Positions 38,492 through 54,529 of a stretch of DNA of 64,000 nucleotides are shown here, in pieces. Position 1 is the first letter of the stretch. Each line of letters begins with the position of its first letter. The stretch covers positions 62,001-126,000 of the forward strand of contig JAFWHO010000001.1 of NCBI GenBank assembly GCA_017515105.1, written 5' to 3'. The position numbers and the translations under genes are program-made. Source of the DNA: Candidatus Saccharimonadota bacterium (GTDB lineage: Bacteria; Patescibacteriota; Saccharimonadia; Saccharimonadales; Saccharimonadaceae). Under the pieces are notes generated by a model that was not told the DNA's origin, made no database searches, and saw only the letters and a program-made list of their open reading frames with translations.

Positions 38492-38502
38492 GACGAGCTA
38501 CA

Positions 38503-38612
38503 GGACGCGAACCGTAGGTTCGCCCTTTCAAGGAAACGAGCGAAAAAGAAAAATTTATTTTTCTTTTTTCGAGTGACGCAGAAAGGAAGACTTTTGCTTT
38601 AGCAAAAGTCTA
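38503..38612 (+). repeat. Three-hairpin element downstream of tRNA-Ile
   Basis: Hairpins GCGAACC-GTA-GGTTCGC (38514-38530), a ~14-bp AT-rich stem (38541-38571) framed by AACGAG and CGAGTG, and GACTTTTGC..GCAAAAGTC (38589-38610). The order and flanking words (AACGAG, CGAGTGxxGCAG, GGxxGAC) match the elements beside tRNA-Arg at 49987-50150. No coding potential seen. Confidence 0.55.
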
Positions 38613-38638
38613 ATCCTTATTCTTATTAAGCAAGCTTC

Positions 38639-49592: not shown

Positions 49593-49643
49593 AGTGATAC
49601 CGGGTGGGGTCGAACCCCGCACCGAAGGTTCGGTGGTTCCCAA
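49593..49643 (-). repeat. tRNA-Met 3'-half mimic (degenerate tRNA-like element)
   Basis: Downstream of tRNA-Met. Begins GTTGGGAACC, forms ACCGA-ACCT-TCGGT, then copies the tRNA-Met T arm and acceptor 3' strand (GGTTCGACCCCACCCGGTA) with a broken CCA. The neighbouring hairpin with ACTGGAGCCAT is duplicated too (49570-49588 and 49650-49668). Same layout as the element at 22759. Confidence 0.6.
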
Positions 49644-49672: not shown

Positions 49673-49749
49673 TGGTGGTACCGGGTGGGGTCGAACCACC
49701 GACCTTGGGCTTATGAGTCCCACGCTCTAACCAGCTGAGCTACGGTACC
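49673..49749 (-). tRNA. tRNA-Met(CAT), elongator
   Basis: Fully paired acceptor GGTACCG/CGGTACC, anticodon loop CTCATAA, CCA encoded. Because AUA has its own TAT tRNA at 38378, an Ile2 (lysidine) identity is less likely but not excluded. Confidence 0.85.
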
Positions 49750-49911: not shown

Positions 49912-49986
49912 TGGTAGGGCCGGATGGAATCGAACCATCATTGTATCCTTAGAGGGGATATGTCCTATCCGTTGAACGACGACCCC
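49912..49986 (-). tRNA. tRNA-Arg(TCT) with C33
   Basis: Acceptor GGGGTCG/CGGCCCT with G1-U72 wobble, anticodon stem TATCC/GGATA and loop CCTCTAA, so position 33 is C instead of the nearly universal U. All other arms are normal and CCA is encoded. Preceded by two tandem hairpin repeats. Confidence 0.82.
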
Positions 49987-50150
49987 AAACGAGTTTAATA
50001 ATTAAAACTTGTTTTAATTATTAAACGAGTGCAGGGAGGCGACGACCTTTGGTCGACGACCCCAAGTGAGTTAATAAAACAAAACTTGTTTTGTTTTATT
50101 AACGAACGCAGGGAGACGAAGGCTTTAGCCTACGACCCCAACATTGATAT
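49987..50150 (-). repeat. Two tandem covarying hairpin repeats upstream of tRNA-Arg(TCT)
   Basis: Two ~80-bp units between the promoter (TATAAT near 50150) and the tRNA. Each starts with TTGGGGTCGT, like the tRNA 5' end, has a small hairpin (CGACC/GGTCG at 50043-50055; AGGC/GCCT at 50120-50131), the word TCCCTGC, and a perfect 14-bp AT-rich stem closed by the same CAAG loop (49994-50025 and 50071-50102). The stem sequences differ between units but stay fully paired. Orientation is given as transcribed with the tRNA. Confidence 0.7.
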
Positions 50151-50156
50151 TATACA

Positions 50157-50906
50157 CTATTTCTCTGGTTTTCTCAACTTGTAGTAGATTGACGGCGCAA
50201 ATCTAATCGGCGCAAGCAACTTCTGCGCCTTATTTTCCATTTTGACCAAATTTTTCGTTCCAAAGATCTTCTTTAAGCCCTTGCTTCGGAAATTAGATAC
50301 CGACAACACTCTCTCGCGCTTAAACCCAACCTTATCAAAAATCTCTTCCACATATTTTGGATGATAATTATAAAATCCGTCCTTCGAAATCTCTTTATAA
50401 TTAGCCACTTTTTTATCAAACGGATTGACTTTACTCCTTCTAGTAATAAAGCGCACCATCTTCGGCAAAGTCCGCTTGTTCGCAACCTCAATAACTGCGA
50501 CTCCACCTGGCTTGAGCACCCTATAAAGTTCCGCCACGGCTTTGTCTAAATACTTCAAATGATGAGTCACTCTTATCATCATTAGACCATCCAACTCACC
50601 ATCTTTAAATGGTAACTTATAGATATCCCCCGCCTTAGTATCAATTTTGTCACCATAAATCTCTTTTGCCTGCTTCAACTCAGACTTAGAATAATCGAAA
50701 ATAATAACTTTACGCGCCCTCCTTAGATATTCATTGGCAAGCCTTCCGTATCCACCGCCAATATCCGCGAATTTTTCCATTCGCTTCGGTAACAATTTCC
50801 GTATCGCCATGCGGTCTGCCTGGTCTTCATACTCACGGTCAGCATCTTCCCAGAAGATTTTTTTGTAGTCATATCCGTTATAGTCAGAAACAATTTTTTC
50901 ACTCAT
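50157..50906 (-). CDS. SAM-dependent class I methyltransferase
   Basis: 249 aa. The Rossmann-like methyltransferase core has FADIGGGYGRLANEY (motif I, about 45-60), IIFDYSKSELKQAK (motif II), GDIYKLPFKDGELDGLMMI (motifs III-IV) and LYRVLKPGGVAVIEVANK (motif VI), the Methyltransf_11/UbiE pattern. The basic C-terminus has KYVEEIFDKVGFKRERVLSV. Substrate unknown; lipid, glycan or small molecule are all possible. An extended -10 (TGATATAAT) ends 7 nt before the ATG, so leaderless. Confidence 0.82.
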   Translation of the reverse strand: MSEKIVSDYNGYDYKKIFWEDADREYEDQADRMAIRKLLPKRMEKFADIGGGYGRLANEYLRRARKVIIFDYSKSELKQAKEIYGDKIDTKAGDIYKLPFKDGELDGLMMIRVTHHLKYLDKAVAELYRVLKPGGVAVIEVANKRTLPKMVRFITRRSKVNPFDKKVANYKEISKDGFYNYHPKYVEEIFDKVGFKRERVLSVSNFRSKGLKKIFGTKNLVKMENKAQKLLAPIRFAPSIYYKLRKPEK

Positions 50907-54271: not shown

Positions 54272-54365
54272 TCTATGGGCACCTCCTTACCCACCAAATT
54301 AAAATTGACCTTCTTTACTACCATTTTAGCATAATTAATAATAAATCAAATAAAAAATATAAAAA

Positions 54366-54390
54366 AGGACAGGATTAAAAATCCTAGTCG
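54366..54390 (-). terminator. Terminator downstream of the tRNA-Ser transcript
   Basis: GACtAGGATT / AATCCTgTC hairpin then CTTTTTT on the minus strand, at the far end of the junction RNA below. Confidence 0.6.
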
Positions 54391-54412: not shown

Positions 54413-54529
54413 CAAGTAGCAGAACCTACGGTTCTCAGCATACTTCAGAAGCAATAAAAATATGAGAGCAAGCTCTCAATTTTTATGCTTCTTTAGTCTG
54501 CTAGAAAAGCTTCGCTTTTCTGCTACTTG
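54413..54529 (-). ncRNA. Candidate four-way-junction RNA downstream of tRNA-Ser
   Basis: A closing stem CAAGTAGC (54522-54529 read on minus) / GCTACTTG (54413-54420) encloses three hairpins in order: AGAAAAGC..GCTTTTCT (54503-54521), a ~20-bp AGAAGCA..TGCTTCT stem with an inner GAGAGC/GCTCTC (54447-54492), and AGAACC-GTA-GGTTCT (54421-54435). The GAACCGTAGGTTC hairpin also occurs at 38514. No reading frame. It lies between tRNA-Ser and a terminator on the same strand. Confidence 0.55.

Follow-up and report, generated by a model that had tools for sequence, protein, structure and literature searches.

In IS608, a member of the IS200/IS605 group, a guide located 5′ of the hairpin pairs with the cleavage site, and the element is inserted 3′ of its target, so that the left flank retains this target, as the excerpted account has it (PMC5934647). 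REP sequences, which go with TnpA-REP, are presented in the section of the source at hand as short palindromes forming DNA hairpins with an irregular stem, beside which a tetranucleotide possibly acts as the guide (PMC8266576). The palindromic elements of Rickettsia are about 150 bp long, encode a conserved peptide and lie in frame in genes, and the excerpted account describes neither a target copy nor a complement (PMC10969869). Small inverted triplications carry one segment in direct, inverted and direct order, with segments of about 150 bp and, as far as the excerpt goes, no shared sequence family (PMC13334657).

The units described here were found in a 64,000 nt stretch of a Candidatus Saccharimonadota genome (the window) and resemble each of these systems in part. 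Like the ends of IS200/IS605 elements such as IS608, each unit presents a guide-like segment (A*), a hairpin and a target copy in this order, with another target copy (A) at the far left, and the sequence 5′ of the hairpin is complementary to the target (34 units, 0 of 5000 permutations). Unlike IS200/IS605, a unit has one conserved hairpin instead of two ends and its target is copied on both sides, whereas IS200/IS605 duplicates none; moreover, the complementarity spans 7 nt rather than the 4 nt of IS608, and the units are gene-less, with no partner transposase in most genomes. They share with REP the short palindromic DNA hairpin, but seem to lack a constant guide of the GTAG type, their guide-like part follows the target, and the target is copied on both sides. 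At the place of the tetranucleotide beside the palindrome, GTAG/GTAA and GTCG both occur by eye, often as in the tRNA, and RYTCG is constant. As small palindromic inserts that can lie in frame in genes they recall the Rickettsia elements, and with small inverted triplications they share the direct-inverted-direct order, in their case of a 7 nt segment. The conserved core sites of integron attC read GTTRRRY; in contrast, A lacks this core and changes from target to target, as judged by eye. Open-access literature searches found no paper on such elements, and their novelty is provisional.

Tandem units ahead of tRNA-Arg(TCT)

On the minus strand of the window, a promoter is followed by unit 1, unit 2 and tRNA-Arg(TCT), with zero gap between the units and the tRNA, whose first base at 49986 directly adjoins the final base of unit 2 (Table 1). 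The two units, 76 and 77 bp long, are direct tandem repeats with 74% identity over 77 nt. Folded together they reach -54.4 kcal/mol compared with -26.1 ± 3.4 for 200 shuffled sequences (z -8.41), and no shuffle was equally low. The sequence GGGGTCGT is common to the tRNA 5′ end and the units, extending over 8 nt in unit 1 and 10 nt in unit 2. The promoter-like site combines TTGAGA and the -10 box TATAAT (50154-50149) at 17 nt spacing with a score of 11/12, and its position places the predicted transcript start roughly at the start of unit 1. The first-pass annotation, made from the sequence alone, had described tandem hairpin repeats that begin like the tRNA and lie between a promoter and the tRNA gene, and all of this is borne out.

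Each unit consists, in order, of A, a small hairpin (hp1), A*, a short linker, RY-TCG, a larger hairpin (hp2) and CTC-RY-TT. A is GGGGTCG plus 1-3 nt copied from the 5′ end of tRNA-Arg(TCT). In both units hp2 is an AT-rich, perfect 15 bp stem with a CAAG loop, or 16 bp if the C and G of CAAG pair and leave AA as the loop; the annotation had been right about the perfect pairing and the loop, although it gave the stem 14 bp. The two hp2 stems differ at several positions and are fully paired in each unit, and hp1 likewise pairs as AGGC/GCCT in one unit and CGACC/GGTCG in the other; the covariation reported for both hairpins is confirmed. Searched against Rfam at the gathering score, the window gave tRNAs only, as did six unit-bearing loci.

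Elsewhere in the window, the 3′ end of tRNA-Met(CAT) with a terminator-like hairpin is repeated 81 bp downstream (49600-49623 and 49681-49704; 24 nt, 88%), and insertion at a tRNA end may have left this trace too.

Table 1. Units, their parts and related features in the window
Feature	Coordinates	Strand	Basis
Unit 1 (A copy, hp1, A*, linker, hp2, tail)	50064..50139	-	fold, self-comparison; model R2, 88.4 bits
Unit 2, abutting tRNA-Arg(TCT)	49987..50063	-	fold, self-comparison; model R2, 85.7 bits
A of unit 1, 8 nt copy of tRNA 5′ end	50132..50139	-	sequence
A of unit 2, 10 nt copy of tRNA 5′ end	50054..50063	-	sequence
A* of unit 1, near-complement of tRNA 5′ end, mismatch at position 5	50112..50118	-	anchored pairing comparison
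A* of unit 2, mismatch also at position 5	50035..50041	-	anchored pairing comparison
hp2 of unit 1, 15 bp perfect stem, CAAG loop	50070..50103	-	fold, sequence
hp2 of unit 2, 15 bp perfect stem, CAAG loop	49993..50026	-	fold, sequence
tRNA-Arg(TCT), target, whose first 7 nt form the right-hand A	49912..49986	-	tRNA annotation
Promoter-like TTGAGA-17-TATAAT upstream of unit 1	50149..50177	-	motif score
Type-2 relative, antisense, downstream of tRNA-Ile(TAT), four-helix fold	38498..38615	-	fold, family searches
Weak, old-looking relative aimed at tRNA-Ser(TGA) 3′ end	54415..54494	+	model R2, 24.9 bits
Antisense 13 nt copy of tRNA-Ser(TGA) 3′ end, left of the preceding relative	54364..54376	+	by eye

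Family members, their targets and filled and empty sites

Within the genus, 49 of 174 genomes contain matches to a covariance model built from the two window units (R1), the kind of model search that the first-pass annotation had in view. A second model (R2) was built from 29 matched stretches taken from elsewhere, all in other genomes and with the window units excluded. It recovered the window units (Table 1), and across the order it had matches in 110 of 392 genomes, which belong to 24 of 156 genera. All 26 model pairs vary on both sides, in an alignment fitted to the structure. The genomes are MAGs, and the counts are not independent events because the genomes are related. Across units, hp2 is flanked by conserved RYTCG...CTCRYTT, and these flanks and the loops are kept at dozens of loci, the commonest loops being CAAG (55) and TAAA (31); both amount to two bases closed by a Watson-Crick pair, which would suit DNA. 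Units in tandem also occur outside the window, for example at L085, L168 and L208. Tandem A-hp1-A* units without hp2 lie ahead of a tRNA-Arg(TCT) at L079 (42-95 and upstream), where hp2 may be dispensable or may have been lost first.

Many strong matches terminate exactly at a tRNA gene. The position analysis covered 143 of 165 matches, 142 of them distinct; the other 22 were set aside by hand because they overlapped listed matches as partial or reverse-strand hits, duplicated a place already included or, in a few cases, scored weakly. Among the 142, 53 abut a tRNA 5′ end in sense and 13 abut a 3′ end in antisense; a further 44 have a tRNA within 200 nt ahead, and 32 have none ahead. In all, 110 units have a tRNA ahead of them within 200 nt, and 16 have one behind them within this distance. 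The units at 3′ ends are antisense and so are again aimed at the tRNA; that is, units point at the tRNA from either side. The last of three guesses in the annotation, a stem-loop family spreading next to tRNAs, is supported by these matches and positions.

The two A copies match the target, which in the window is the 5′ strand of the tRNA acceptor. Units at Arg, Glu, Lys, Met, Asp and Cys tRNAs each begin with the end of their own tRNA, and an exact copy of at least 7 nt of the own 5′ end is present in 42 of the 53 5′-end units (lengths 7-11), compared with 5 of 1493 comparisons to other tRNAs and 1 of 87 leaders devoid of a unit. In other genera, units precede gene promoters and copy -10 boxes or the -10 region (L185, L187, L188 and L193). 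In the spacer between 16S and 23S rRNA, further units run antisense to the operon (L035, L103 and L105), and others lie at the apparent 3′ end of a similar protein gene in two genomes (L177, in tandem, and L100). In tRNAs and, by eye, in pheT (TGTTGT...ACAACA), the target forms the 5′ strand of a hairpin; as a general rule this was dropped, finding no general support in the 32 units with no tRNA ahead.

A longer relative, type 2, occurs in 71 of the 174 genomes of the genus and sits past the tRNA terminator. Three of four folds of type 2 contain four helices, L086 folding differently, and the type-2 sequence is alike at different tRNAs and in different genomes. On its far side it carries a copy of the tRNA 3′ end that spans CCA to the T-loop and measures up to 17-20 nt; its near side is, by eye, complementary to part of this copy. 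A 3′-side copy of at least 8 nt was found in 31 of 51 units versus 17 of 2346 controls; the type-2 relative at tRNA-Ile in the window has lost its copy (4 nt). Direct copies as in a target site duplication are found at both tRNA ends, with variable length. The core pattern of type 2 matched 16 named contigs, all Candidatus Saccharibacteria and several from sheep and goat ileum, and no viral contigs. On contig 2 of the window's genome, a second copy of the tRNA-Leu(TAA) 3′ end follows the gene at a distance of about 60 bp (L058, 1360-1510).

Sites both filled and empty exist for the family. In genome G110, a unit lies in frame inside a gene that we take, from its sequence, to be pheT; it adds about 24 residues that are missing from the aligned relatives G004, G006, G012, G001 and G015, and its A copies are unlike by eye (left ATGCTGT, right CGACGGT). 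In G211, a unit interrupts the remnant of a Y1 transposase at a site read by eye, and the right copy keeps the original sequence. The leader of tRNA-Arg(TCT) is plain in G001, and in G056 a similar leader is followed by a unit.

Pairing in the stems and the A* complement

Stems selected to fold as RNA are expected to contain common G-U pairs and rare A-C mismatches. We scored pairs with equal penalties for G-T and A-C. In the hp2 stems of 136 of the 142 units, 1671 pairs comprised 1604 Watson-Crick, 11 G-T, 18 A-C and 38 others, and in the inner hp1 stems of 29 of 34 units there were 161 Watson-Crick pairs, no G-T, no A-C and 10 others. As a control, the acceptor stems of 117 tRNAs from the same loci gave 702 Watson-Crick, 117 G-T and no A-C among 819 pairs. 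The hp2 stems do not show the pattern of a conserved RNA, in which G-U is tolerated and A-C is excluded; with few G-T and even more A-C, their covariation is real but is a property of the DNA. The hp2 stems are DNA palindromes and not selected RNA, contrary to the annotation, which had taken the covariation as evidence of a kept RNA structure. On these counts, an RNA leader function was rejected as the reason for the family to exist.

To characterize A*, 34 units were hand-picked from the matches, and units without hp2 (L008, L028, L079 and L097) were excluded. In the anchored comparison, an average of 5.26 of the 7 positions of A* form Watson-Crick pairs with the own tRNA, versus 3.63 with other targets. 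The total of 179 pairs over the 34 units was reached in none of 5000 permutations, the best of which gave 154. A* is perfect in only one unit; the other 33 are defective, with position 5 the usual site (19 of 34) and positions 3 and 4 affected as well. With free positions, the mean complementarity was 5.94 for own and 5.75 for other targets, and the comparison of A* with the right flank in all units gave a weak signal. Where the left and right A differ, A* fits now one and now the other, as seen by eye. As A* tracks the target, simple target site duplication alone was rejected. The units form a family of strict DNA palindromes in the order A-hp1-A*-hp2-A, in which A matches the target and A* is its near-complement.

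Possible routes of insertion

A target copy together with its near-complement hints at insertion guided by base pairing. Our preferred reading, to which we give a probability of about one half, treats the units as a non-autonomous kind of small DNA insertion element in Saccharibacteria, inserted as single strands in a guide-like manner with an IS200/IS605-like order of parts. Insertion would take place on single-stranded DNA, where hp2 would be bound by an enzyme and A* would serve as the guide that pairs with the target A. The strand would be joined 3′ of the left A, and the right A, either carried along or duplicated, would restore the tRNA 5′ end; insertion at tRNA ends may be tolerated because the duplicated A keeps the tRNA intact. 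The order of IS200/IS605 ends (cleavage site, guide, hairpin, cleavage site) would be compressed onto one hairpin. Several findings run against guided insertion, among them the shifting fit of A* to the left or the right A. The A copies in pheT are unlike, and the original sequence in the G211 remnant is the right copy, the reverse of the prediction that the target is retained on the left. The complementarity is 7 nt long where IS608 guides have 4 nt, and the copies begin at tRNA nucleotide 1, which a guide alone leaves unexplained.

No matching transposase was found, so we can only infer the mechanism. Within the genus, 8 of 174 genomes carry the Y1 transposase (PF01797), and 4 of these 8 belong to the 49 genomes that R1 matched; the window's genome has only a remnant below the cut-off. 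The end hairpins of the two intact Y1 elements examined are unlike the units, and an R2 search of the Y1 loci L108-L115 found a unit in L110 only. The IS110 transposase (PF01548) occurs in 3 of 174 genomes and is absent from the window's genome, which sets the units apart from IS110 bridge-RNA elements. Reverse transcriptases are encoded in 98 of 174 genomes and in 27 of the 49 with R1 matches (counted by eye), proportions that indicate no association with the units. Many of the reverse transcriptases in the genus search have about 380 residues, and none is found in the window's genome. None of the three fits as the partner enzyme.

As a more tentative form of guided insertion, the unit may be a self-guided mini-element, a gene-less hairpin of about 70 nt that would choose its site through A*, restore the target, either carried along or duplicated, and be retargeted to a new tRNA, promoter or gene when A* changes or is copied anew from that site.

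The strongest rivals are template switching and an ordinary MITE. Template switching during replication, which we consider unlikely, would produce A-A*-A as a small inverted triplication by fold-back synthesis at palindromes and thereby keep the stems perfect. It would account for A* at each site and for the absent G-T pairs; template switching makes and maintains perfect hairpins (PMC8794818), and small inverted triplications have the direct-inverted-direct order with spacers (PMC13334657), both as stated in excerpts of these sources. However, a shared, recognised element is required by the hp2 flanks and loops conserved at dozens of loci, by the type-2 sequence that is alike across tRNAs and genomes, and by the constant A* defect (33/34). 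It is likewise doubtful that the units are classical MITEs, palindromes inserted by a DDE-type transposase acting in trans, with A as the target site duplication and A* as a by-product or a later selected feature. Direct copies do flank each unit, and such elements are common in bacteria, the Rickettsia elements being inserted in frame in genes too, according to the excerpt (PMC10969869). Nevertheless, no terminal inverted repeats were seen by eye in 34 units, the copies differ in length (7-11 nt on the 5′ side, reaching 17-20 nt on the 3′ side), and the tracking of each target by A* is unexplained. Neither template switching nor a MITE alone explains both the shared RYTCG...CTCRYTT hairpin and the target-specific A*. 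Finally, an RNA element of the tRNA leader, the processing signal or decoy suggested by the annotation, is very improbable: a -10 box (5 or 6 of 6 within 32 nt) lies upstream of 31 of 52 testable 5′-end units and the predicted folds are strong, but the stems show no preference for G-U, and units that are antisense at 3′ ends or lie in pheT, the transposase remnant, rRNA spacers and promoters mean that leader processing or decoy activity cannot be the purpose of the family.

Perfect covariation of a hairpin usually counts as proof that an RNA structure exists; it can nonetheless be a matter of DNA alone, and the count of G-T versus A-C pairs is a simple test for which of the two it stems from. 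In these ultra-small bacteria, the units make up an abundant family of small inserts that leave the tRNA at the insertion site intact. If A* is a guide, they would represent a gene-less, naturally reprogrammed insertion system of which evolution has already sampled dozens of targets.
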